From Gayadomonas joobiniege G7 (lineage in GTDB: Bacteria > Pseudomonadota > Gammaproteobacteria > Enterobacterales > Alteromonadaceae): a stretch of DNA of 64,000 nt. This document shows, piece after piece, positions 20,098-62,916 of this stretch. The notes under the pieces are model-generated. The model made no database searches, was not told the origin of the DNA, and saw only the letters and a list, made by a program, of their open reading frames with translations. The position numbers and the translations under genes are program-made. Where the stretch lies: positions 248,001 through 312,000 of the forward strand of contig NZ_AMRX01000008.1 in assembly GCF_000300815.1 (NCBI RefSeq), given 5' to 3'. Every line of letters starts with the position of its first letter. Position 1 is the first letter of the stretch.

Positions 20098-23000
20098 ATG
20101 AAATTTAATCATCCATTTAATTTATTGCCATTGGCGACCCTGATCAGTCTGTCACTGGCCGGTTGTGGTGGCGCAGGTAATGATACTGAAAGTGGCCAAG
20201 TACTGCTGAGCTGCGAAAACCCGCAAGTTCCAAATGCTGCTGGCGATGCTTGTGTGGATCCCGAACCTATTTTTTGTCCAGTGCCTACAGTGCCAGACGA
20301 AAAAAATGAAAGCTGTGTGGCTGGGGTTGATCCAACAGCACCGGATCCGGTTTATTTTCCAAAAGACAATGAAGCTGTGCTCTATTTTAATAAAGCCGAT
20401 GGTGAGTACGAAGGCTATCGTCTACACACTTGGAATAATGATGCATGCGACAGCTATGCGCCAAGCGCAATTGCCGCCTCTTGGGACAATGGTTTAGTTC
20501 ATACAGACGTAGATCCAAATTATGGTGCTTATTGGGTGCTGCAATTAAAAGAAGGTTTCGGCGATTGTGGTAACTTTATTATTCACGTTGGCACCGACGA
20601 TGCAGGCAAAGAAATGGGCGGTTCTGACTTTAAAATGCCGCTAAAACAAGCTGACGACACCTTTGCTAGAATGAACTTTACCTTTAGTAAAGAAGCCTCA
20701 GTGTTTGAATATCCGGTCGTTAGTTTAGGTGAGCGGCCCCTTGCGATTGAAGGTCGCAGTGCTCATATGGTCGATGCGTACACCTTAGTATGGGATACCA
20801 CAGATGTGGACGTTGCCGAGGTGAAATTACATTCGTCAATGGCAGCAGACATTCAAGTAGACGATGATTCAAATGTGTCTGGCGACACTGTCGCTTTTAG
20901 TGCGACCAACTTAACCGCAGAGCAAGCAGATAGATTACCTGCAATTGCAAGTTGGCCTGCATACAGCGCCTCATTAACGGCTGACGAAAGCAAAAAATTA
21001 TTAAAAGCACAATTGGTGGCCGTTGCGTATAACAGTGACGGTAAACCAGTTAAAGCCTCTTATGTGCAAACAGCTAAAGCTTTGGATGCTCTGTATACCA
21101 TGGGTGAACAAGACGCTGACGAAGCTGAACTTGGCGTTATTTATGATAACGGCGCTATTATTAGCTCGGTTTGGGCGCCGACTGCACAAAAGGTACGTTT
21201 AAAAGTTTATGATGCCGATAAAAGCGAAATTGCGACTCATGATATGGATTATGACGAGGCTACGGGTATATGGCGCTATGAAGGTGACTCAGGTTTAGAC
21301 CGCAAATTTTATCAATTTGAGGTGACGGTTTATCACCCAGTGAGCGAACAACTCGAAACCTTATTAACATCAGATCCCTATTCAGTGAGTTTGTCGACCA
21401 ATGGCGAATATTCGCAATTTGTTAATTTAGACGACGCCGATTTAAAACCAGTTGATTGGGATAGCCACAGCATTCCAACGATCACAAACATCGAAGATGC
21501 GGTTTTATTAGAAGGTCACATTAGAGACTTTAGTATTTTAGATACCACAGTCAGTGAGAAAAACAGAGGAAAATACCTAGCTTTTACCGAAACTGACTCA
21601 AATGCAGTACAGTATTTAAAACGCTTGCAAAGTGCCGGTGTCACTCATTTTCATATGTTGCCAGCAAATGACATTGCGACCATTGAAGAAAACCCAAGTG
21701 ACCGTATTGATTTAAACAATACAGTGGCTGAGTTATGTGAAGTTAAATCAGAAAGTAAACTTTGTGGTCAAGGTATAAATGATCAAACTTTGATGCAAGT
21801 GCTTGAAGATATAAAATTTTATGAGTTTATTGATGCGCAAGAGTTGATCACCGAAATCCAAAATTTGGATGGCTTTAACTGGGGTTATGACCCTCATCAT
21901 TTCAACGCGCCAGAAGGTAGTTATGCCAGTGATCCAGATGGTGTTGCGCGGATAAAAGAAATGCGTGAAATGAATAAAGCCTTGCACGAAATGGGCTTAA
22001 GAGTGGTATTAGATGTAGTGTACAACCACACCAGTGCCTCGGGTTTATGGGATAACTCAGTTTTTGACAAAGTTGTTCCGGGTTATTACCACAGACTCAA
22101 TGAAGAAACAGGTGCCGTTTATAATTCAAGCTGCTGTGATAATACGGCTACCGAAAATAAAATGTTTGATAAGTTTATCAAAGACTCTTTGGTGATGTGG
22201 GCTGAGCATTATAAGTTTGACTCATTCCGTTTCGACATTATGGGTCATTTACCGGTTGAAACCATTTTAGAAGCGCGTGACTTAGTGGCCGAAATCGATC
22301 CGGATACCTATTTTTACGGTGAAGGTTGGAACTTTGGTGATGATGTGCGTAACGATCGCTTATTTACCCAAGCCACTCAACCAAACTTGGCCGGCTCAGA
22401 AGTAGGTACTTTTAACGACAGACCGCGAGACCATATCCGCAGCGGTACTTTGTTTAACGAAGATGGCAGCTTAAATTCGCAAGATCAAATCCGATTAGGT
22501 TTAGCGGGCACCATTAGCGACTTTTTATTAAAGAGCTATCAAGGGGGTGTGGCCGAAGGCAGTTCATATGGCAATGCCAGCTACGCAAAAGATCCAGCAG
22601 ACGTCATCAACTATATTTCTAAACATGATAATGAAACTCTTTGGGACCAATTACAGTATGGTTTACCTGCCAGCATGTCGCTGAACGAGCGTGTGCGCGC
22701 TCATAGTCAAGCGGCGGCCATCCCGTTATTGAGTCAAGGTATTCCGTTTTTCCAACTAGGGGTCGATCTGCTTCGTTCTAAATCAATGGACAGAGACAGT
22801 TATAATTCGGGAGACTGGTTTAACCGAATTGACTTATCGGGCCAGACTCATAACTGGAACATAGGTTTACCTGTCGCAGAAAAAAATGAAGAAAAATGGC
22901 CTGAAATTCTCAAACTGTCAGTCGCAGTGGATGCCGCAGGCGTCAATGAGTTGATGCATAGTCAAGCTGTGTTCGAAGAGTTTTTAAGGATCCGTCAGGA

Positions 23001-24414
23001 TAGCCCTTTATTCCGGTTAACCACCGCCAATGACATTATTAACCGAGTTGGTTTTCATAATATTGGTGAGCGGCAGCAACAAGGTGTGATTGTCATGAGT
23101 ATTGACGATGGTTTAGGTCTTGCCGACTTAGATCCTAAGTATGACGCTATTCTTGTTATGATTAATGCCACTGATGAAAGCCAGACTCAAACCGTACCGA
23201 CTGCGGCAGGTTTTGAATTGCATCCAATTTTGCAAAATTCTTATGACCTAGACGTACAAGGTGCCACCTTTGTTGAGGGCGACGCCGAAGGCAGCTTTAC
23301 AGTGCCCCCACTGACCACTGCTGTTTTTGTTAAAAATCAAGCAGATACTCAAGGTGCTGGTTTGTCAGCGGATGCCACTCAAGGTGCGCCTGATGTTGTG
23401 CCTTATGGTGATACCAAGGTGTATTTGCGTGGTGATATGAACGGCTGGAGCACTGAAATGCCATTAAATTACATAGGTGGCGGAAAGTACGAGGTACGAG
23501 CCGAGTTAATGGCGGCAACCACGTATAACTTTAAATTTGGTTCAGATCCTTGGGATGCAATTAATATAGGCACAACCGAAGGGGGCAGTTTAGCACTGAC
23601 CGCAGGTATGACAGAAACCTTAGTGTCTGGTGGCAACCCTGGTAACTTAAGTTTTACCCCAGAGCGTGATGGCACCTTTATCTTTACGTTAGATGCTTCA
23701 AATAAAGACGCACCTTTAGCCACCATTGTTAATGAAGAACCCTTTGTTGGTGTTGACGTTTATTTGCGCGGCGATATGAACAGCTGGAGCACAGATAACC
23801 CTATGGTTTACCAAGGTGGCCGAGTGTACACTGCAAGCATGACTTTAGATGCGGATACTTACAATTTTAAAGTGGCTGATGCCGATTGGGGTGGTCAAGG
23901 AGTCAACTTTGGCGCTGAGTCAGCCGATGAAGCCAGTGTTGAACTGGCTACCGTTGAATACCTAACCGCAGGTAGCCAAGATAATTTATCACTTACACTA
24001 ACCGAAACGACTGAAGTGATCTTTATCTTAGATATGAGCAACCTTGAGCCTAAGCTAAAAGTCTTTAAACAAAACTTTTTTGCAGACACCACTGCCTTGT
24101 TGCGTGGAGAGATGAATGGCTGGGGTGACACAGATGCGCTGTCTTATAATAATGATGGTAGCTACTCGATTGATGTTGAATTAGAAGCACGTAGTTATAG
24201 CTTTAAAGTAGCGGATGCTGACTGGGGTGGCCAAGGGATTAATTTGGGTGCGACTTCAGCCGACGAGGCAAGCTTAACATTAGGCGAGTCTGCACAAATG
24301 TCAGCTGGCAGTCAGGACAATTTCAGCATAGACATACCAGCCGCAGGCATGTATCGCTTTACCGTAACAGGGCCAGATGCAACTCAGCCTAGCCTAACGG
24401 TAACAGCGCTTTAA
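20098..24414 (+). CDS. Pullulanase-type GH13 lipoprotein with three C-terminal beta modules
   Basis: Debranching alpha-glucanase of 1438 residues, outer-membrane lipoprotein by its LAGC lipobox (Cys about 22). Order: short Cys-rich linker; CBM41-like domain (about 95-185); N2-like domain; CBM48 (about 345-420, SSVWAPTAQKVRLKVYD); GH13 catalytic domain with region I DVVYNHT (about 640), region II FRFDIMGH (nucleophile Asp about 712), region III YGEGWNFGD (Glu about 741) and region IV ISKHDNET (Asp about 842). YDPHHFNAPEGSYA is typical of pullulanases. Beyond the usual C-terminal domain are three repeats beginning near residues 1107, 1220 and 1332, each opening with LRG(D/E)MN(G/S)W, resembling SusE/SusF-type starch-binding folds. 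Usual length is about 1000-1100, so the repeats are an addition. Operon with the upstream receptor. Confidence 0.92.
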   Translation: MKFNHPFNLLPLATLISLSLAGCGGAGNDTESGQVLLSCENPQVPNAAGDACVDPEPIFCPVPTVPDEKNESCVAGVDPTAPDPVYFPKDNEAVLYFNKADGEYEGYRLHTWNNDACDSYAPSAIAASWDNGLVHTDVDPNYGAYWVLQLKEGFGDCGNFIIHVGTDDAGKEMGGSDFKMPLKQADDTFARMNFTFSKEASVFEYPVVSLGERPLAIEGRSAHMVDAYTLVWDTTDVDVAEVKLHSSMAADIQVDDDSNVSGDTVAFSATNLTAEQADRLPAIASWPAYSASLTADESKKLLKAQLVAVAYNSDGKPVKASYVQTAKALDALYTMGEQDADEAELGVIYDNGAIISSVWAPTAQKVRLKVYDADKSEIATHDMDYDEATGIWRYEGDSGLDRKFYQFEVTVYHPVSEQLETLLTSDPYSVSLSTNGEYSQFVNLDDADLKPVDWDSHSIPTITNIEDAVLLEGHIRDFSILDTTVSEKNRGKYLAFTETDSNAVQYLKRLQSAGVTHFHMLPANDIATIEENPSDRIDLNNTVAELCEVKSESKLCGQGINDQTLMQVLEDIKFYEFIDAQELITEIQNLDGFNWGYDPHHFNAPEGSYASDPDGVARIKEMREMNKALHEMGLRVVLDVVYNHTSASGLWDNSVFDKVVPGYYHRLNEETGAVYNSSCCDNTATENKMFDKFIKDSLVMWAEHYKFDSFRFDIMGHLPVETILEARDLVAEIDPDTYFYGEGWNFGDDVRNDRLFTQATQPNLAGSEVGTFNDRPRDHIRSGTLFNEDGSLNSQDQIRLGLAGTISDFLLKSYQGGVAEGSSYGNASYAKDPADVINYISKHDNETLWDQLQYGLPASMSLNERVRAHSQAAAIPLLSQGIPFFQLGVDLLRSKSMDRDSYNSGDWFNRIDLSGQTHNWNIGLPVAEKNEEKWPEILKLSVAVDAAGVNELMHSQAVFEEFLRIRQDSPLFRLTTANDIINRVGFHNIGERQQQGVIVMSIDDGLGLADLDPKYDAILVMINATDESQTQTVPTAAGFELHPILQNSYDLDVQGATFVEGDAEGSFTVPPLTTAVFVKNQADTQGAGLSADATQGAPDVVPYGDTKVYLRGDMNGWSTEMPLNYIGGGKYEVRAELMAATTYNFKFGSDPWDAINIGTTEGGSLALTAGMTETLVSGGNPGNLSFTPERDGTFIFTLDASNKDAPLATIVNEEPFVGVDVYLRGDMNSWSTDNPMVYQGGRVYTASMTLDADTYNFKVADADWGGQGVNFGAESADEASVELATVEYLTAGSQDNLSLTLTETTEVIFILDMSNLEPKLKVFKQNFFADTTALLRGEMNGWGDTDALSYNNDGSYSIDVELEARSYSFKVADADWGGQGINLGATSADEASLTLGESAQMSAGSQDNFSIDIPAAGMYRFTVTGPDATQPSLTVTAL

Positions 24415-43646: not shown

Positions 43647-44342
43647 ATGATGCAACTTTCAAAGTTAATAACCGGGGCGGGGCTCAGCTTGTTTTTAAGC
43701 TTTACTGCCGCAGCGGAAACCCTATCGGATAGTCTAGATAATTGGAAAAATGTTTATCCTTATGGAGAAGTTAAAAAATCCGGTGAAAGCCTTGCGCTGA
43801 TCTCTACAGGCAACTGGTTTTTATTAAGCAAAGCTCGCTATAGCGACTTTATCCTTGAAGCAGACGTGAAAATGCCAGCGGTAGACAAAGAGTATTCTAA
43901 CAGTGGTATTATTTTTCGAGCCCAAGTTGGTACGAAAAAAGATGGTACTCAGTATGCTTATGGATACCAAGCCGAAGTTGACCCAAGCGATCGCAAATGG
44001 AGTGGCGGTCTGTACGAGCAGGGAACCGCTCGACAGTGGTTATTTCCGCAACATAAAACACGCTCTAAACCGGGTGAAAAATTTAAGAAGAACTTGTCAC
44101 CTGAATGGACAGATAAAAAAGCCAACGCTTATAAACACACCCAATGGAATCACTACAAAATTAAAGCCCAAGGTGAGCATATTCAAATTTGGGTAAACGA
44201 TGTGTTAACCGTTGACGTAATTGATAGCAATCTAAGCGAGGGTCATGTTGGTATTCAGCATCATGGCAGCGCCAAATTTAAAAATCATGGTGATAGAACT
44301 AATACAGTATTGTTTAAAAATATTCAAATTACTCCACTTTAA
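43647..44342 (+). CDS. DUF1080 (3-keto-disaccharide hydrolase family) exported protein
   Basis: Periplasmic protein of 231 residues with signal peptide ending near TAAA (about 23). The mature part is one LamG-like beta-sandwich of the DUF1080/PF06439 family: SKARYSDFILEADVKMP, NSGIIFRAQ, YGYQAEVDP, and the closing WNHYKIKAQGEHIQIWVNDV, EGHVGIQHHG and VLFKNIQITPL. This family is now associated with hydrolysis of 3-keto sugars and glycosides in Bacteroidetes and related bacteria. It heads a same-strand cluster with c-type cytochromes, 10 bp before the next gene, consistent with a 3-keto-glycoside route. Enzymatic activity here is inferred. Confidence 0.85.
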   Translation: MMQLSKLITGAGLSLFLSFTAAAETLSDSLDNWKNVYPYGEVKKSGESLALISTGNWFLLSKARYSDFILEADVKMPAVDKEYSNSGIIFRAQVGTKKDGTQYAYGYQAEVDPSDRKWSGGLYEQGTARQWLFPQHKTRSKPGEKFKKNLSPEWTDKKANAYKHTQWNHYKIKAQGEHIQIWVNDVLTVDVIDSNLSEGHVGIQHHGSAKFKNHGDRTNTVLFKNIQITPL

Positions 44343-44352
44343 GTTGAAGACT

Positions 44353-46794
44353 ATGACAAAAGATTTCAGTCGAGCTATTTTTACTGGCTATTTGTTAGTA
44401 CAAATGGCCACCTTTTCTCAATCGGCATTTTCGCAAATTGCGCAAGTAACTGATCTTAAAGATAATGAAAACTCGCAGCCAGAAGTCCGAAAAATGAAAG
44501 GCGATCGCGACGGTCATGTGATGCAGGACGTGATCCCAAAAAATGAGATCCCACCTGCCCCTATTTTATCAGTCGAAGCGTCATTAAAAGCTATGCAGGT
44601 AGCGGATGGTTTTGTGGTTGAGCCTGTGGTTTCTGAGCCTAATGTTTTTAACCCAGTTGCAATGGCATTTGATGGCAATGGTCGTATCTGGGTGGCAGAA
44701 ATGACGCGTTACATGCCCAATATCTATGGAGATGGCGAAAACGTGCCCGAAGGCAACATTGTGATGTTGGAAGATCAAAATAATGATGGCAAGGTGGACA
44801 AACGTACTGTGCTTATCTCTGATGCGATATTGCCAAGGACCATAAGTTTAGTTAAAGGTGGCATATTGTACGCTGACCATACGCAACTATTTTTTGCCCG
44901 AATTGAGCAAAAAAAAGGTGAGGTCATTATGGTGAAGCGAGATGTGGTTGACCCAGAATATGCTCTAGGTGGCAGTCTTGAGCATAAACCTAATACCATG
45001 TTGTACAACTTAGACAATTGGTACTACAACGCAAAAAGCTATAAAAAATATCAGGTATTGCCGCTCGCCGCTGAGCTACCCAATGGTGCGACAGAAATTT
45101 ATCGTAATGATTTATGGAAAATGGTTAAAGCCGATACGGATTATCGTGGTCAGTGGGGCGTAACCCATGACGACTTTGGGCGTTTATATCATAATGGTAA
45201 TAGCTCACCGATTCAGGGGGAATATCTGCTTCCTGGCACATTACGACAAAATCCTGGTTTTTGGCCAAAAAACCAAGCTGATCGCATAGGTCCTGCTAAC
45301 ATTTATCCTGCTCGTATGAACCCAGGTGTTAACCGAGGTTATTTAGACGGATTTTTAATAGAAGAGGGCGAAAACAGAGGTAAACTTAAAGGCTTTACTG
45401 CGGCCAGTGGTAGCTTGATTTACCGTGGTGATAATTACCCCACGCGTTTTTACGGTATGGGCTTAACACCAGGGCCAGCTGCTAATTTAATTTCAGCTCG
45501 TTATGTTTCACAAGGTCACGGTAAGATGCAGGGGGAGTTGATTTACCCAGGACACGAATGGTTAGCTTCAACCGATGAGCGGTTTCGTCCAGTCAACATG
45601 TATACAGCACCGGACGGCACTATCTACTTTTTAGACATGTATCATGGCATTTTGCAGCACAAAGAGTTTTTAACGACTTATTTGAGTGAGCAAATTAAAG
45701 CGCGTGAATTAGATAAAAATAACAATACAATGGGCCGAATTTATCGAGTTCGTTGGGCTGACAAGCCACGTGGTGAACAACCTAAGATGATTGGCAAAAA
45801 CGCTCGCGAGTTAGTGCCTTATTTAAGCCATGCAAATGGTTGGTGGCGTGATACAGCGCGACGTTTAATTATTCAAAGTCAGCCAGATAAGTCTATTGTA
45901 ACACCGATCAAAGCAGCGCTAAATAATGCAATAAAAAGCGATAATTTTCCTGTCGCAGCCAATTTATTATGGACGCTACATGCATTAAATGGTTTAGATT
46001 TAAATACGTTAAAAACTGCACTGACGGATTCAAACCTGCAAATTGCAGCCACTGCGGTTGCAGTTTCAGATGCTATCCCTGAATCGGAGCAAAATCAGCT
46101 TATTGTTTTGCTTAAAAATTTAATTTCAAAAGATTATGACTTGGCATTACAAGCCGCCGCAGTTTCCGCGCGCTTAAAGGTTGCAAATGCGATTGAGTTA
46201 AACTTAGCTGTGCTTGAGCAGTATTTAGATGAACCTTTAGTTCGCGAAGTGGTTGTTAGTGGGTTAGGCACCCGTAGCAAGGCCTTTATCGAAAAATTGG
46301 GCCAGCACCCTGATGCTAAGCTTATGTATATGTTGAACAATTTAGGTAAAAAACCAGCTGATCGTACTAACAGAGCCCAGTTAAGCTCGCTCGGACAAAC
46401 GTTATATGATGAAGGTAAAACCTTATATTCAGGATCGGCAGCTTGTTTTGGTTGTCACGGTGCAGACGGCAGTGGTATTGATGGTTTAGGGCCTACTTTT
46501 TGGCAAAGCGAGTGGGTGATTGACGATAAACAAAAGCTAGCAAAAGTGCTATTACATGGGTTATCTGGCCCTATCTGGGTTAAAAAATCTCGCTGGGAAA
46601 CCTCAGCTGTGATGCCTGGGCTAGCGGCCAGAACCGATATCAGCGATAGAGACTTAGCGGCAATTGCGACTTATATCCGAAACGCTTGGGGTAATACAGC
46701 CGACACCGGTAGCCATGTTGAACCTGAGTTAATAAAAGAAGTACGTAACGCAACCAAAAACCGACAGCAACCCTATAAGCAGGAAGATTTTTAA
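44353..46794 (+). CDS. PVC-type haem-binding CxxCH dehydrogenase-like protein
   Basis: Exported protein of 813 residues from ATG 44353; the frame is open from 44245, but the later start gives a signal peptide ending near SAFS (about 29). Residues about 80-460 form a beta-propeller resembling the PVC membrane-bound dehydrogenase domain (VADGFVVEPVVSEPNVFNPVAMAFD, GRIWVAEMTRYMP). A helical HEAT-like region follows (about 470-670). A C-terminal cytochrome c domain has the haem motif CFGCH (about 695), with an MPG sixth-ligand candidate near 753. This architecture is characteristic of Planctomycetes and Verrucomicrobia and uncommon in Gammaproteobacteria. It likely oxidises a sugar-derived substrate in the periplasm. 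Confidence 0.85.
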   Translation: MTKDFSRAIFTGYLLVQMATFSQSAFSQIAQVTDLKDNENSQPEVRKMKGDRDGHVMQDVIPKNEIPPAPILSVEASLKAMQVADGFVVEPVVSEPNVFNPVAMAFDGNGRIWVAEMTRYMPNIYGDGENVPEGNIVMLEDQNNDGKVDKRTVLISDAILPRTISLVKGGILYADHTQLFFARIEQKKGEVIMVKRDVVDPEYALGGSLEHKPNTMLYNLDNWYYNAKSYKKYQVLPLAAELPNGATEIYRNDLWKMVKADTDYRGQWGVTHDDFGRLYHNGNSSPIQGEYLLPGTLRQNPGFWPKNQADRIGPANIYPARMNPGVNRGYLDGFLIEEGENRGKLKGFTAASGSLIYRGDNYPTRFYGMGLTPGPAANLISARYVSQGHGKMQGELIYPGHEWLASTDERFRPVNMYTAPDGTIYFLDMYHGILQHKEFLTTYLSEQIKARELDKNNNTMGRIYRVRWADKPRGEQPKMIGKNARELVPYLSHANGWWRDTARRLIIQSQPDKSIVTPIKAALNNAIKSDNFPVAANLLWTLHALNGLDLNTLKTALTDSNLQIAATAVAVSDAIPESEQNQLIVLLKNLISKDYDLALQAAAVSARLKVANAIELNLAVLEQYLDEPLVREVVVSGLGTRSKAFIEKLGQHPDAKLMYMLNNLGKKPADRTNRAQLSSLGQTLYDEGKTLYSGSAACFGCHGADGSGIDGLGPTFWQSEWVIDDKQKLAKVLLHGLSGPIWVKKSRWETSAVMPGLAARTDISDRDLAAIATYIRNAWGNTADTGSHVEPELIKEVRNATKNRQQPYKQEDF

Positions 46795-49294: not shown

Positions 49295-52200
49295 ATGGGT
49301 TGGGTAAAGTTAATTTGTTTATGTAGTTTAATTAGCCAGCTAATGTTAGGTTGCAAGGCTGAACCAGAAGCAGGCACGGAAGCTAAAATTAGCTTTAATA
49401 AGGATATTAGGCCTATTTTAACCGAGCACTGTACAGGCTGTCATGGCGGCGTGAGCAAACAAGCCGGTGTGTCATTTGTATATCAAAAAGAAGCTTTTGG
49501 CCGCGGTCACTCAGGACGTCTAACGATAAAACCCGGCGACCCAGATGGATCTGAGCTGATAGCTCGATTAGAAACTTCGGATAAACGCTTACGCATGCCG
49601 TACAATGCGCCACCTTTGTCGCCAGAAAAAATACAAAAGCTCAGGCGATGGATCAAACAAGGTGCTAAGTGGGAAAAACACTGGGCGTTTAAAAAACCAG
49701 TTAAAAGATCACCGCCAGCCGAATCAACTGATAGTGAAAATCCAATCGATCAATTTATTCAGCGTTCATTACGATCGCAAAACCTACAAATGAATGTAAG
49801 GGCAGATAAATACCGTCAGCTGCGTCGGTTAAGCCTAGATCTGATTGGCTTACCGCCAACTTTATCAGAAATCGAAGAATTTATCGCTGATCAATCAGAT
49901 ACAGCTTATGAAACGCAAGTTGACCGCTTGTTAGCATCGCCGCATTTTGGTGAGCGTTGGGCCGCTATGTGGCTCGATTTGGCCAGATATGCTGATAGCC
50001 AAGGTTATACTAGAGATGAATATAGGGCCAGTTGGCCATACCGTGATTGGGTGATCAAAGCTTTTAATAAAAACCTGCCCTACGATCAATTTGTGACTAA
50101 ACAATTGGCAGGCGATTTATTACCAAATAACAAACTACCCGATTTAATTGCCACTGGCTTTCACCGGCAAACCCCAGTCAATAGTGAAGGGGGGACAGAT
50201 GATGAAGAGTTTAGGCTAGTAGCAGTGATGGACAGAGTCGCAACCACTTGGCAAGCGATTAATGGTTTAACAATGGAGTGTGTGCAGTGCCATTCACATC
50301 CTTATGATCCGATTGAGCATCAAGAATATTATCAGTCGTTGGCCTTTTTTAATACTCAAAGAGATGCCGACAGACGTCACGATGGTCCGCATTTGTTAAT
50401 AGCCGATGATAAAGAAAAACAATCCAAGGTTTTTGATTGGCAAATGCGTTTGAATGAATTGGAAAACTTGGCATTGACACAAACTCACCAATTGAATCAA
50501 TCCGTGAAGGATTGGACAAAGTTGCCAATTGTTCGTGTGCTGAGTGATGATAAAACCGCTTTACAAGATGAAATATCGGTTTTAAAAAAACGTATTCAGC
50601 GATTAGATGCAGATAGTCAAAAATATGCTTTACGCTTTGCTAAGCGCAGTTTAGAACAACGCCAAGCACGTTTAGCTCAATTATCCGATTCAAATTATCG
50701 GCCGCAACCACTAACGGTTAAAAACGGCGAACTCAATCACAAAGCCCCTTTCAGCGCTAAAACTCGGCTAGTTATGACAACTCATCCGGTAGAGCATCGG
50801 CAAGCCTTAGCAGCTATTAAATTTTCAGTATTGCCACTAAATGAGCAGAAAGCACGGCATACACCCGAATTTGCTGTTTCGCTTGATCATATAGATATTT
50901 ATAAACGAACAAAAAACGGTCAAAGTGACAAATTAGCGATTAAAGATTTTTTAAGTTTGCAAAGCGAATCAATTGCCGATCAACTCACTCGTCTTGCTGA
51001 TGGTAAAAATAGGGGTGCGGCAAACGGCTTGTACAGTCATCGCTTGTTCTCACCACTTGAAACTATTGCTGTTTTTGAAAAAAAATTAAACCTTGAAGTC
51101 GGTGATGCAATTGAGGTTGTGATTAAACAATATCAGTATCGTAACTTAAACGAAGGCATGCCGTCTGAATTACATAGGTTTAAAATTTCGGCCAGCCAAG
51201 ACGAAAGTCTAATTGAGTATGCTGTTAGTCAGGCACGCCAACAACTGATTGCGCAATATAAGCAGGTGAATGAACAGCTAAAACCTATTAAAGGCACTAA
51301 GTTGCCGATCATGCAAGAGCAGGATAAGTTTAATCAGCGTGGTACCGCTTTGTTCTCACGGGGTAATTTTTTAGCCAAACAAGGCCCTTTGTTAACACCA
51401 GAGACGCCAGCTATTTTCCCTCCGATGGTGGAGCAAAAAAAGCTTGATCGCCTGGCATTAGCCAATTGGTTTTTTGATAAAGATCAGCCGTTAACTGCCC
51501 GTGTTGCAGTCAATCACTTTTGGCAACAGTTGTTTGGTCAAGGGTTGGTCAGAACCGTAGGCGATTTTGGTAGCTCGGGTGAGCCGCCCAGTCACCCTGA
51601 ATTGTTAGATTATTTAGCGCTCACTTTTCAAAATAACTTTGAATGGAATATTAAAAAACTGATTAAACTCATGGTAATGAGTGACACCTATCGGCGATCA
51701 TCCAATGTCACAAATATAGAGCAAGACCGGCAGAACCTTTGGTTATCTAGAGCCAACAAACGTCGTTTAAGCGCCGAAATGATTCGTGACCAGGCACTTG
51801 TCACCAGTGGACTTTTTAACGCTGAAATGTTTGGCAAACCTGTGATGCCACCGCAACCCAGTGGCATCTGGGGTCGCAAGGGGCGTGTGATTAAAGACTG
51901 GCAAACTGCAAATGACGCAAATCGATATCGACGTGCAATTTATACCTTTATTAAACGCGCTTATATCTACCCTAGCTTTTTAACCTTTGATATGGAAACA
52001 AGAGAAATCAGCCATGGTAAACGCATTGCAACTAATACGCCTTTGCAAGCGCTGGTGACATTAAACGATCCCGTTTTTGTCGAAGCGGCAAATGCGCTTG
52101 GTGTTTTGATTCAAAAAGATTATTTAACCGATAAAAATATACAACGAGCTTTACGTAGAGGTTTTTTAAAAGTGACTTCGCGTCCGCCAACTGAGAATGA

Positions 52201-52321
52201 AATTAGCGAAATAAAAAACACCTGGATGGCACTTTTAACCGCTACTGACGACCAGCAGACGTTAGCCTTTAGCCAGATAGGGGCGCTTTTACTCAACTTG
52301 GATGCCGCGTTAACAAGGTAA
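49295..52321 (+). CDS. PSCyt1-DUF1549-DUF1553 (PSD1) cytochrome lipoprotein
   Basis: Lipoprotein of 1008 residues (lipobox LMLGC, Cys about 20). N-terminal planctomycete cytochrome domain PSCyt1: NKDIRPILTEHCTGCHGG, haem motif CTGCH about 46-50. DUF1549 follows (about 150-360; LRRLSLDLIGLPPTLSEIEEF, HFGERWAAMWLDLARYADSQG) and carries a second haem motif CVQCH (about 328) in the family-typical HSHPYDPIEHQEYY context. After a coiled-coil and beta insertion, DUF1553/PSD1 (about 710-1000) contains RLALANWFF, VNHFWQQLFGQGLVRTVGDFG and ATNTPLQALVTLNDPVFVEAA. Such proteins pair with DUF1501 partners, as here. Electron transfer is inferred from two c-haem sites; the substrate is unknown. Confidence 0.93.
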   Translation: MGWVKLICLCSLISQLMLGCKAEPEAGTEAKISFNKDIRPILTEHCTGCHGGVSKQAGVSFVYQKEAFGRGHSGRLTIKPGDPDGSELIARLETSDKRLRMPYNAPPLSPEKIQKLRRWIKQGAKWEKHWAFKKPVKRSPPAESTDSENPIDQFIQRSLRSQNLQMNVRADKYRQLRRLSLDLIGLPPTLSEIEEFIADQSDTAYETQVDRLLASPHFGERWAAMWLDLARYADSQGYTRDEYRASWPYRDWVIKAFNKNLPYDQFVTKQLAGDLLPNNKLPDLIATGFHRQTPVNSEGGTDDEEFRLVAVMDRVATTWQAINGLTMECVQCHSHPYDPIEHQEYYQSLAFFNTQRDADRRHDGPHLLIADDKEKQSKVFDWQMRLNELENLALTQTHQLNQSVKDWTKLPIVRVLSDDKTALQDEISVLKKRIQRLDADSQKYALRFAKRSLEQRQARLAQLSDSNYRPQPLTVKNGELNHKAPFSAKTRLVMTTHPVEHRQALAAIKFSVLPLNEQKARHTPEFAVSLDHIDIYKRTKNGQSDKLAIKDFLSLQSESIADQLTRLADGKNRGAANGLYSHRLFSPLETIAVFEKKLNLEVGDAIEVVIKQYQYRNLNEGMPSELHRFKISASQDESLIEYAVSQARQQLIAQYKQVNEQLKPIKGTKLPIMQEQDKFNQRGTALFSRGNFLAKQGPLLTPETPAIFPPMVEQKKLDRLALANWFFDKDQPLTARVAVNHFWQQLFGQGLVRTVGDFGSSGEPPSHPELLDYLALTFQNNFEWNIKKLIKLMVMSDTYRRSSNVTNIEQDRQNLWLSRANKRRLSAEMIRDQALVTSGLFNAEMFGKPVMPPQPSGIWGRKGRVIKDWQTANDANRYRRAIYTFIKRAYIYPSFLTFDMETREISHGKRIATNTPLQALVTLNDPVFVEAANALGVLIQKDYLTDKNIQRALRRGFLKVTSRPPTENEISEIKNTWMALLTATDDQQTLAFSQIGALLLNLDAALTR

Positions 52322-59822: not shown

Positions 59823-59849
59823 AGTTATCCACAGAAACAGTGGATAACT
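59823..59849. repeat. Perfect hairpin containing a DnaA box
   Basis: AGTTATCCAC (59823-59832) and GTGGATAACT (59840-59849) are a perfect 10-bp inverted repeat around a 7-base loop. TTATCCACA at 59825-59833 matches the consensus DnaA box, and the other arm is a partial inverted box. It lies 29 bp after the Sel1 gene without a T-run, so it is not a standard terminator. Confidence 0.6.
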
Positions 59850-59939: not shown

Positions 59940-60944
59940 ATGAGCACAGTTAAGCTTCCAAAAATCATTTTTGGCACCAGTAGCCTAGGTAACCTGTTTG
60001 TTGAACTGGATAAACAAACTAAAACTCAGCTCGTTGACGCGGCCATTCAAAATAGTCCAGATACGGTTATTTTTGATAGCGCTGGAAAATACGGTGCAGG
60101 GCTTGCGTTAGAGTCCATCTCGACTGCTTTATCAGAGCTAAACATAGCACCAGAGGCGGTTAAAATTAGTAATAAGTTAGGTTGGAAAAGGGCACCGTTA
60201 AAAACAGCCGAGCCAACCTTTGAGCCGGGCGCATGGGTTAATATCAAACATGATGCGGTGCAAGATATTTCTTATCAAGGTATTTTAGACTGTTACCATG
60301 AAGGCAATCAATTGTTGTCACCGTATCAGGCTAAAATTGTTTCTGTTCATGATCCAGATGAATATTTGGCTGCGGCGACCGATCAAGCCGATTTAGATCA
60401 GCGTAAAGCAGATATTTTAGAGGCTTACCGGGCTTTGCAAGCTTTACGTGATTGCGGCGAAGTTGAATCTGTAGGCGTGGGGGCTAAAGATGTTTCTGTT
60501 ATCGACTTTATTAGCGATCACGTTCGGCTGGATTGGGCGATGTTTGCTTGTTCGTTGACGCCTTTTACTCATAAAAAATCGACTTTAGATCTCATCAAAA
60601 AGTTACATCAGCAAGGTGTTAAAATTATTAACTCGGCTGTTTTTAACTCAGGGTTTTTATTAGGGAGTGATAATCTGGATTATAAAAAAGTGTCCAGAGA
60701 AACCCACCCCGAAGCATTTGCTTGGCGTGATAAGTTCCATCAACTTTGTGATAAGTACCAGATAACGGGTGCACAAGCTTGTGTGCAATTTTCATTTTTA
60801 TTTGACGGCGTTGAATCGATTGCGCTGAGCTCAAGCTCGCCTAAGCGCGTTAAGTCTAACATAAGTTTGAGCGAAGCAGACGTGCCTAAAGCCTTTTGGC
60901 AAGATATGTATCATCAGGGTTTGATTAAAATAAAAATTACCTAA
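59940..60944 (+). CDS. Aldo/keto reductase, D-threo-aldose 1-dehydrogenase-like
   Basis: NAD(P)-dependent sugar oxidoreductase of 334 residues. AKR motifs: IIFGTSSLGNLF (about 9-20), the catalytic Asp and Tyr in FDSAGKYGAG (about 43-50), Lys in ISNKLGWKR (about 83), and His in VSVHDPDEYL (about 137). The length and the GYxD-like DCYHEG/ILDCY region fit the L-fucose/L-galactose (D-threo-aldose) 1-dehydrogenase subgroup. That would suit oxidation of L-galactose from porphyran or agar, given the GH86 gene nearby. Substrate is inferred. No ribosome-binding site stronger than AGGATC is seen. Confidence 0.85.
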   Translation: MSTVKLPKIIFGTSSLGNLFVELDKQTKTQLVDAAIQNSPDTVIFDSAGKYGAGLALESISTALSELNIAPEAVKISNKLGWKRAPLKTAEPTFEPGAWVNIKHDAVQDISYQGILDCYHEGNQLLSPYQAKIVSVHDPDEYLAAATDQADLDQRKADILEAYRALQALRDCGEVESVGVGAKDVSVIDFISDHVRLDWAMFACSLTPFTHKKSTLDLIKKLHQQGVKIINSAVFNSGFLLGSDNLDYKKVSRETHPEAFAWRDKFHQLCDKYQITGAQACVQFSFLFDGVESIALSSSSPKRVKSNISLSEADVPKAFWQDMYHQGLIKIKIT

Positions 60945-61779
60945 AAGTACATCAGGCCACCTTACAAGAGCGATTATTGCACTTAAATGACAAGGTGGCC
61001 GCTTTTAATCTTCTTTAAACAAGCACAGTATGCCACCTTTTCCATATATCGGTTAGCATTTAGCTAGTACAGTTAGCCACCTTGGGATGCTTTTTATTTT
61101 AGTGCTGCCGTGAATTTGTTTAAAGGTGGCCATTTGTACTTTTTATATTGGCTGGCAAAACGCTGGCTGAGGCTTTATTATGCGCTAAAGGTGGCTATTT
61201 GTACTTCGAATGGGCATTATGTTAGGCCTATTTGGGTCGCTGCACCGCTAATTCGAAAAAAGGTGGCTAACTGTACGTATTTATTGATTGCATGTGTTTT
61301 TTCGGTGTTGCACTTTATAGTAAGGTGGCTAACTGTACGGCTCTAACTTTGAATGAACGATTAAAAAACCTTGAGTTGAGCAGGGAAAATAGTCATTTTA
61401 ATAGAAGGTGGCCAGATGTACTTATAAAATCAGACTAGCCGATTAAAGAATTAAAGCAGGTAAATATCACAAGGTGGCTATATGTACTTTAATAAAAATA
61501 CAATAGAAAGGAAAGGTGGCTAATTGTACGGGCTAGATCTGAAAAAATTGACCTACGGTGGCTAAAAGTACGATCAAAAAATTAGCTAAAGCGAGCAAAG
61601 GCGGCTGATTGTACGACTTGGTAGCCAAGGTGGCGATTTGTACTTAGTGTTTTTCGGAGCTCATTTAAGATACTTGATTAACTGAACTTGTTGGCTGGTT
61701 GCATAAACGTAAAAGTGGCCTAATGTACTGAGTACAATAAGCCACTTTTACGCAATGTTTGTGCATCACCAACGTATTG
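60945..61779. repeat. Intergenic array of sixteen 17-bp AAGGTGGC-N5-GTAC repeats
   Basis: This 835-bp stretch holds no credible gene. It contains sixteen copies of AAGGTGGCNNNNNGTAC, most often AAGGTGGCTANNTGTAC. Plus-strand copies start at 60992 (degenerate), 61123, 61188, 61260, 61322, 61405, 61471, 61513, 61555, 61598, 61627 and 61712. Minus-strand copies start at 60947, 61023 (degenerate), 61067 and 61732. Spacers differ in sequence, so this is neither a simple tandem repeat nor a CRISPR array. The layout looks like a multi-site binding array for one protein. No transposase, initiator or partition gene is adjacent. Confidence 0.9.
61708..61752. repeat. Long inverted pair closing the repeat array
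   Basis: The last two array units face each other. Outer arms CGTAAAAGTGGC (61708-61719) and GCCACTTTTACG (61741-61752) are perfect; inner parts meet as TGTAC-TGA-GTACA. Overall it is an arm of 21 bp with two mismatches and a 3-base loop, 27 bp from the end of the convergently read cyclase gene. It may double as that gene's terminator. Confidence 0.8.
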
Positions 61780-62916
61780 TTAGCAAGCTAGTTCTAATTC
61801 TGAGCTTTGTAATTGAGCAATGGATTTTTTCATCCATTCGCTGTTTATATGGTTAGCTTCAAAACCAGAGCCTAGGTTATTCAACAAAGTGATGCATAAC
61901 CGGCCTCCTAGATGCTCTTTAAATTCATTTAAGGCTTGTTCAACATCTAACTGCTGCAATGCGCTATGATTTAAAGTAAACCCTAAAGTTGTTAACAAGG
62001 TAATAATTTTATTGGCATCCGCTTGTGTTAAATGACCCGCATAAACCGAATATAAACTGTCAATAGCAATACCAATGGCAACGGCTTCGCCGTGCCTGAG
62101 TTCGTTATTAGAAAGCTCTTCTAGCTTGTGAGCAGACCAATGACCAAAATCTAACGGCCGAGCCGAGCCGAACTCAAAAGGGTCGCCATTGGTTGCAATA
62201 TGATCAAGATGCCATTTTGCCCCTTTAATGATCATATTTTTCATCGCAGCGGTCTCAAATTGAGCTAGTTCAAAACGGTCAGCATAAAGCTGGTTGAAAA
62301 ACTCTTTATCTTTGATTAAGGCAACTTTAATGGCTTCAGCAATGCCGCAGCGTTTGTCTCGCACTTGCAAACTATTTAATAGCGTAAAATCATTAATCAC
62401 CGCAAAGGGTGGTACAAAAGTGCCTAAATAATTTTTGCGTTTATTAAAATTAATTGCGTTTTTAACGCCGACCCCAGCATCGTTTTGTCCTAACACTGTT
62501 GATGGTAAACGAATAAGGCGAATACCTCTGTGTGCTGTTGCTGCAGCATAACCAACAGCATCTACTACAGCGCCGCCACCAACAACAATGATATAAGAAT
62601 GACGGTCAATTTTATAATCTGCCACGGCTTGATAAATGTCTTCAAGCCATTGGGTATGGTTTTTACAGTCTTCACCACCAGGAATAATCAAAGTATCACT
62701 TAGCTTTAACTCGGCGGCGGCTAGATAATCAGCGACTTTTTGTGATAACTCGGGATGACAAGCGGCTACCTCGCTGTCGAGACATAATAAAAACTCGGGA
62801 CGATCACTCAGATTATCAATTAGCTTTATTAACGATTGATTATTCGAAGAAAAGGTATCTTCAGTAAAGATCACTGGATACTGATAGCTAACTGTAAAGC
62901 TCTGATTGATTTGCAT
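61780..62916 (-). CDS. Sugar-phosphate cyclase family protein (EboD/3-dehydroquinate-synthase-like)
   Basis: NAD- and metal-dependent cyclase of 378 residues. It shows the DHQS-fold motifs PGGEDCKN (about 79), IIVVGGGAVVDAVGYAAATAHRGIRLIRLPST (about 109-140), the Lys in GVKNAINF (about 151), and the metal-binding Glu/His set in CGIAEAIKVALI (about 194), LDFGHWSAHKLE and LRHGEAVAIGI (about 272). The RPLDFGHW sequence, in place of the NFGHTFGHAIE of true AroB, suggests the EboD or 2-epi-5-epi-valiolone-synthase side of the superfamily, so a cyclitol product is more likely than shikimate. It is divergent from a Gfo/Idh/MocA oxidoreductase, a frequent cyclitol partner. Confidence 0.8.
   Translation of the reverse strand: MQINQSFTVSYQYPVIFTEDTFSSNNQSLIKLIDNLSDRPEFLLCLDSEVAACHPELSQKVADYLAAAELKLSDTLIIPGGEDCKNHTQWLEDIYQAVADYKIDRHSYIIVVGGGAVVDAVGYAAATAHRGIRLIRLPSTVLGQNDAGVGVKNAINFNKRKNYLGTFVPPFAVINDFTLLNSLQVRDKRCGIAEAIKVALIKDKEFFNQLYADRFELAQFETAAMKNMIIKGAKWHLDHIATNGDPFEFGSARPLDFGHWSAHKLEELSNNELRHGEAVAIGIAIDSLYSVYAGHLTQADANKIITLLTTLGFTLNHSALQQLDVEQALNEFKEHLGGRLCITLLNNLGSGFEANHINSEWMKKSIAQLQSSELELAC

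Follow-up and report, generated by a model that had tools for sequence, protein, structure and literature searches.

A dense distal iteron array on a putative chromid of Gayadomonas joobiniege G7, a probable titration site for the replicon's own Rep_3-family initiator

We identified a dense array of 16 short repeated sites (iterons) at positions 60947-61748 of a 64,000-nucleotide stretch of the Gayadomonas joobiniege G7 genome, here called the window (positions 248001-312000 of contig NZ_AMRX01000008.1, below C1). The assembly holds 3,910,429 bp in eight contigs, and C1 accounts for 769,523 bp. The array is probably a distal iteron cluster for the Rep_3-family (RepE/pi-like) initiator of its own replicon, Rep, and would act by withholding Rep from the origin. 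The same motif forms a second cluster beside the rep gene, it is concentrated in these two clusters, and in a second species the origin and distal sites have changed together. Judged by their letters, the array sites are very probably docking sites of Rep, and the most likely function of the array is that of a datA- or incA-like locus at which Rep would be titrated or handcuffed.

A pattern scan of the window recovered 16 sites of the form AAGGTGGC-N5-GTAC, 12 on the plus strand and 4 on the minus strand, exactly as an earlier reading of this DNA made without database searches (the sequence-only reading) had counted them. Each 17-bp site consists of two blocks, AAGGTGGC and GTAC, lying about one helical turn apart, and position 13 is a T in 15 of the 16 sites. 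Ten sites are exact, five have one mismatch and one has two. Numbered from the left, the exact sites are iterons 1 (60947-60963) and 4 (61067-61083) on the minus strand and, on the plus strand, iterons 5 (61123-61139), 6 (61188-61204), 7 (61260-61276), 8 (61322-61338), 9 (61405-61421), 10 (61471-61487), 11 (61513-61529) and 14 (61627-61643). One mismatch is found in iterons 3 (61023-61039) and 16 (61732-61748), both on the minus strand, and in iterons 12 (61555-61571), 13 (61598-61614) and 15 (61712-61728) on the plus strand, while iteron 2 (60992-61008, plus strand) carries two and has lost its GTAC block. With up to two mismatches allowed, the window contains 27 matches, against a mean of 3.55 and a maximum of 8 in dinucleotide shuffles.

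The region is indeed free of genes, as the sequence-only reading had stated, and the array fills the space that two convergent genes leave between their 3' ends, at 60944 and 61780. The spacers are mutually unlike (best local alignment score 18, shuffled mean 19.85), which also bears out that reading; their range had been given as 12-68 bp and is in fact 3-68 bp, the last two sites being inverted with 3 bp between them, and site-to-site spacings run from 20 to 85 bp. Tandem Repeats Finder reported nothing at a score of 30 or more, and the array has neither the near-identical repeats and regular spacers of clustered regularly interspaced short palindromic repeats (CRISPR) nor a single tandem unit, so the earlier exclusion of both holds. 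We also rejected a simple repeat, an insertion sequence (IS) and a miniature inverted-repeat transposable element: no tandem unit was found, and blastn searches of the plasmid and phage collections were negative. In these searches, which did not extend to transposase genes between the two clusters, nothing supported the earlier suggestions of IS21- or Tn7-type ends or of a landing zone for small elements, and the one other dense cluster adjoins rep. No known element matched in them either, so one of the two outcomes that the sequence-only reading had named as refuting was not seen.

Across the assembly, the exact motif occurs 17 times and always on C1: ten copies lie in the window array, two at C1:141102-141211 and five are isolated. 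With one mismatch allowed the count rises to 40, whereas the reversed pattern gives 5. None of the 59 other genomes searched has more than three exact copies. A uniform scatter, which the sequence-only reading had named as an outcome that would undo its proposal, is thereby rejected. Only two dense clusters exist in the assembly, namely the window array and a cluster at C1:140784-141254, 168 kb apart along the contig. The second cluster has 12-13 sites and lies between parA, which has a ParB-like gene behind it, and an open reading frame (ORF) of 497 amino acids in which the Rep3_C winged-helix domain was recognised (E 1e-8). Sites that share a single consensus thus adjoin an initiator gene of the Rep_3 family on their own replicon. 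The earlier remark that no Rep or ParB gene adjoins the array is correct locally, but rep, parA and parB stand at the only other dense cluster. Its suggestions of iterons and of a cis-acting site for an unlinked protein have fared well, since the sites appear to be iterons whose Rep has its gene 168 kb away.

The relationship of the two clusters was also evident from position weight matrices. A matrix built from 12 sites of the origin cluster found all 16 window-array sites at a score of at least 9 and 15 of them at a score of at least 14; these 15 fall within 900 bp, where 200 column-permuted matrices found at most two. Elsewhere on C1 the matrix found at most four sites per 900 bp; at a score of at least 9, two groups of four lie at 271 and 292 kb. 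By the identity of their letters, probable initiator sites are present on the same replicon and away from its origin.

The two clusters differ in layout. In the origin of this genome, a phased block at C1:140944-141053 has spacings of 21, 23, 21, 22 and 22 bp. The window array lacks any such block of sites 21-23 bp apart, resembling instead the irregular kind of sites, and its density of GATC is 2.2 per kb, compared with 8.1 per kb at the origin. The 12 plus-strand distal sites show a helical periodicity (at 10.5 bp, vector strength 0.65 and p 0.004), with p 0.065 for the origin block; we place no reliance on it. These features bear on the idea that the array is a second, dormant or backup origin left by the fusion of two related plasmids. 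Iterons are a hallmark of origins and 16 of them would be sufficient for one; nevertheless, the phased iterons, the AT-rich core with GATC and the linked rep gene of an active iteron origin are all missing at the array, the assembly contains a single match for this Rep, and the GC skew keeps its sign there. Two origins with the same iterons are, moreover, expected to be incompatible. We regard a backup origin as most improbable.

The initiator belongs to a narrowly distributed family. Six of 60 genomes searched, this one included, encode a match for Rep, all of them within the same genus, and two of the eight members of the genus (G002 and G005) do not. A search of 394 genomes from the order gave a match at E 1e-10 in this genome alone. 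In the plasmid collection two records matched, from Catenovulum adriaticum (45.8%) and Pseudoalteromonas rubra (30.7%), and a more distant Rep used as query added a partial match in Hydrogenimonas. The Rep3_C domain was matched by all seven aligned Reps, including that of this genome. A sequence search against chains in the PDB gave no good match for Rep (best E 0.67). An AlphaFold model of the C. maritimum Rep was of modest quality, with a mean predicted local distance difference test (pLDDT) value of 71 and a predicted template-modelling (pTM) score of 0.34, and had 46 PDB matches at E of 0.001 or less (1.6e-6 to 6.1e-4). All of these are plasmid Rep proteins, mostly RepE, and they include pi and another iteron-bound Rep, with template-modelling scores by target of 0.44-0.57. 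Two winged-helix domains in the initiator would explain a site with two blocks and a free middle.

We also examined the origins of relatives, namely Catenovulum sp. 2E275, C. maritimum Q1, C. agarivorans DS-2 and YM01, and C. adriaticum TS8 (plasmid pCadTS8_1). Together with this genome and P. rubra plasmid pMBL6842 these provide eight Reps, two of them from YM01, and at a lenient score cut-off all eight have between 10 and 27 sites of the same two-block form upstream. Most of these origins have a block of about six sites spaced some 21-22 bp apart beside an AT stretch rich in GATC, with irregular sites around it, and this phased block may well be the working origin. The letters of the sites are the same within the closest pairs of Reps, pCadTS8_1 with C. 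sp. 2E275 (78%) and DS-2 with YM01-C11 (89%), and they differ among the other Rep lineages, which share 27-50% identity. Over the eight origins, and in the distal arrays of two species, the site sequence thus follows its cognate initiator. In YM01, the two related Reps (L098 and L099) differ in their iteron letters, as compatible replicons would be expected to do.

The origins of relatives also bear on whether the array is a centromere-like site (parS) bound by ParB, a form that the sequence-only reading had considered. Repeat arrays act as centromeres in some plasmids, and the origin cluster of C1 borders parA. Against this, each Rep of YM01 has an array with letters of its own, and in P. rubra pMBL6842, the one plasmid in which we asked whether the sites travel with parAB, they do not: they lie at rep (56.1-57.0 kb, with one weak match at 51.6 kb), and the vicinity of the ParA gene, some 10 kb off (66.1-67.3 kb), has none. 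A partition site is accordingly very unlikely.

Two further distal arrays were found in C. maritimum Q1. Array A, about 19 kb from the origin and 17 kb or so past rep, has 19 sites (C29:19757-21216). Array B has 25 sites at positions 390410-392032 of that species' own C1 scaffold. On this scaffold it lies about 250 kb from the left edge of the origin, where a ParA-family gene is also found; the distance grows by at most 43 kb if C29 fills the gap in the scaffold. The two pieces very probably belong together, since the first 150 bases of C29 recur in the scaffold at 140769, immediately before the assembly gap. A matrix from the C. maritimum origin found 22, 19 and 25 sites in its own origin and its two distal arrays and none in either array of the present genome, and the matrix of this genome found no site in any of the three C. 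maritimum clusters. The distal arrays of two species therefore carry the letters of their own origins, and this is our best evidence that such arrays belong to the initiator system. The neighbours and positions of the C. maritimum arrays differ from those of the window array. Most of their sites lie in tandem units of 53 and 52 bp that are 87-89% alike and contain one iteron each (L183 10902-12032; L185 5180-5879), and tandem duplication therefore seems to be how these arrays grew.

Several observations weigh against our reading of the array. The complete 672-kb plasmid pCadTS8_1 has 25-28 origin iterons and no distal array, apart from three weak matches at 231.6 kb. In the drafts of C. sp. 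2E275, YM01 and DS-2, only origin clusters were found by pattern searches, which miss degenerate sites and, with the C. sp. 2E275 pattern, found just three sites even at its own origin. Distal arrays were thus found in two of the seven Rep-bearing genomes or plasmid records, and such an array appears to be dispensable for this Rep family. It counts in favour of our reading that the distal sites average 0.44 mismatches to the consensus and the origin sites 1.46 although the distal spacers are mutually unlike, but the comparison is biased toward the distal sites because the consensus was derived from them. The ends of C1 do not overlap, and the 168 kb is therefore a distance along the contig only. 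Binding by Rep is predicted from the letters of the sites; the resemblance in fold between a relative and RepE and pi, both iteron-bound, bears on it indirectly.

C1 is, in our view, a chromid or megaplasmid with a length of 770 kb or more. ARAGORN, run on C1 in pieces, found no tRNA there. A tRNA family search in which 150 of 295 candidates were scored gave at least 57 matches in the assembly, one of them on C1 and the weakest among the matches listed. This lone match (C1:169066-169164, 99 nt, 45.5 bits) was not called by ARAGORN. Division of C1 into 77 bins of 10 kb gave 69 bins with positive GC skew, 7 with negative skew and 1 with none, and the 141 kb to the left of the origin are positive overall. 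Because the skew is positive on both sides of the rep origin, C1 looks as if it is replicated in one direction, and a fork would therefore reach the array 168 kb after its start. The skew of pCadTS8_1 changes sign at the origin and again at about 360 kb, as if replicated both ways, and that of the C. maritimum scaffold with the origin also changes sign there. Most Pseudoalteromonas chromids are reported to be unidirectional and to have tus, parAB and repA near ori2 (PMC8496264, PMC7858055). C1 shares this grouping, with a Ter/Tus-family gene (PF05472, E 2.5e-13; L031 4605-5498) directly behind parB. Ter/Tus-family genes are also found next to rep in C. agarivorans DS-2 (C35) and on P. rubra pMBL6842; a whole-genome search for the family missed the copy in this genome, which hmmscan finds, and its negatives are not relied on. 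In addition, the left edge of the origin array bears the sequence GATGGTTGTAAGTA (C1:140742; L031 7743-7756), which is Ter-like when compared with the core of E. coli Ter; its inner 11-mer occurs once on C1.

The array is flanked on the left by an aldo/keto reductase family gene (PF00248; 59940-60944, plus strand), which stops 2 bp ahead of it, and on the right by a convergent 3-dehydroquinate-synthase-like gene (PF01761/PF24621; 61780-62916, minus strand). PADLOC gave no defence-system match for either. Between the reductase gene and a sel1-repeat-like gene, positions 59823-59849 form a perfect 10-bp stem with a 7-base loop, and its arms, TTATCCAC and GTGGATAA, are DnaA-box-like. At the other end of the array, iterons 15 and 16 and their flanks form a hairpin (61700-61765; -29.4 kcal/mol as RNA, z -6.5), which perhaps has an additional role as terminator for the two convergent genes. 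A structured RNA was considered and rejected, as the five Rfam matches at E of 1 or less all lie over this hairpin and far below their gathering scores. The position of so strong a hairpin between convergent genes would suit a transcription control or termination element serving both of them. However, the hairpin takes up two of the 16 sites, the array lies where the two genes stop and not where they start, and the same motif makes up the origin cluster, so that we see hardly any likelihood of this being what the array as a whole is for. Promoter-like sites between 60500 and 62000 were not in excess (4, against 3.4 in shuffles).

From its neighbours in a relative, we take the gene at 61780-62916 to be eboD-like. 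It stands alone beside the array, apart from the other ebo-type genes; eboC-, eboA-, eboB- and eboE-like genes lie directly after rep (L031 11166-14895). Since the ebo-type genes are split between the two places, a rearrangement between the array and rep regions is conceivable, and the array could be a relic, once accessory iterons of the origin or copied from it, that was moved and still binds Rep without any selected role. It adjoins the very gene whose usual neighbours lie 1.4-6.5 kb past rep, and upstream of the phased block this origin has 2 sites where DS-2 and both YM01 origins have 8. The ebo argument is nevertheless weak: a second eboB-like copy (81%) is present in this genome at C1:682445-683320, and in C. 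maritimum the eboD-like gene (C37) is also separate from eboB (C7). For the same reasons, a 165-kb inversion, which would unite the eboC-like gene with the eboD-like one again and return the array to the side of rep, is kept only as an idea. Moreover, any similarity of the spacers has gone while the sites have stayed near consensus, and the two distal arrays of C. maritimum lie elsewhere. A relic is thus unlikely, although we give it some weight. In C. adriaticum the ebo-type genes form one cluster on a 3.2-Mb contig. Pattern searches found no site cluster beside eboD in C. sp. 2E275, YM01, C. maritimum Q1, DS-2 or C. adriaticum TS8; YM01 and DS-2 each have a single motif match about 13 bp past the eboD stop. 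In G002 and G005, the surroundings of eboD were read by eye over 1.1 kb.

The sequence-only reading had seen no copy of the motif elsewhere in the window, which proved incorrect. Two exact copies, at 23254-23270 (minus strand) and 23813-23829 (plus strand), lie inside an ORF at 20098-24414 that encodes a repeated protein domain; two more, at 44398-44414 (minus) and 44855-44871 (plus), lie inside the ORF at 44245-46794, and one at 49600-49616 (minus) inside the ORF at 49295-52321. All five isolated exact copies of the assembly thus fall in three reading frames within 26 kb of the window (23254-49616), and the array follows them at a distance of 11-38 kb. A matrix that combines the two arrays placed, at a score of at least 14, 8 of its 14 isolated matches on C1 in this interval (C1:271254-297616), among them all four that score above 20; the reversed matrix gave five matches on C1 and none in the interval. 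Half of the eight lie in one gene with repeated domains, so the clustering may partly be coincidence. The rest of the pattern recalls the spread RctB sites of V. cholerae.

If the array is a distal cluster for Rep, its action can be pictured in a few steps. Rep held at the near-consensus sites of the array would be kept from the origin, and contacts between Rep molecules may bridge array and origin, which is handcuffing. Passage of the fork through the array, 168 kb from the origin, would double the competing sites, and the doubled sites would suppress early re-initiation, in the manner put forward for E. coli datA and for the RctB sites outside the origin in V. cholerae. Binding by Rep, inhibition, handcuffing and timing are in this sense what we infer from the arrangement of the sites. 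Since this chromid appears to be replicated one way by its GC skew, the array would be met once per round.

Precedents exist for parts of this scheme. The incA locus of P1 and the incC locus of F are extra iterons outside the minimal origin that cut copy number by titration and handcuffing; they adjoin origin and rep, whereas the window array is 168 kb off. Rep_3 initiators are not known to act through ATP hydrolysis in the way DnaA does at datA. Like the window array, datA is a compact locus away from the origin, described as binding the initiator and being duplicated during elongation; unlike the array, it binds DnaA and promotes ATP hydrolysis (PMC3937223). The crtS locus of V. cholerae is likewise a distant initiator-binding locus, tying initiation to fork passage, but it is a single site on the other chromosome and activates (PMC6090056, PMC11711613), whereas the window array is on the same replicon. 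The nearest case is that of the external RctB sites of V. cholerae chromosome II, which are also sites of a plasmid-type chromid's own initiator lying off the origin on the same replicon and are reported to titrate the initiator and inhibit initiation (PMC3937223, PMC6090056). They bind RctB and lower the copy number of ori2 plasmids, and a cloned fragment had no origin activity (PMC3937223). Unlike them, the window array packs 16 sites into 0.8 kb at 168 kb, exceeding the 12-13 of the origin, and the initiator here is of the Rep_3/RepE type rather than RctB.

In conclusion, the dense distal arrays of the two species, whose positions are unrelated, appear to be a new form of initiator-titration site. 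In the open-licence literature searched, no title dealt with distal iteron arrays in Catenovulum. More tentatively, and with less than an even chance in our estimate, such arrays could be recurrent, dedicated timing elements on Catenovulum chromids that arose independently (about 19, about 250 and 168 kb from the origin), with fork passage raising the number of high-affinity sites and so setting the next firing. Control that limits plasmid-derived second chromosomes to one firing per cycle is known in detail for few systems, chiefly Vibrio chromosome II (PMC6090056, PMC13342612). The parts here are compact and few: a single Rep, 12-13 sites at the origin and, apart from them, a block of 16 that could be removed, relocated or duplicated. 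Together with natural variants that have no distal array, as in C. adriaticum, or two, as in C. maritimum, they make the idea of titration and timing directly testable.
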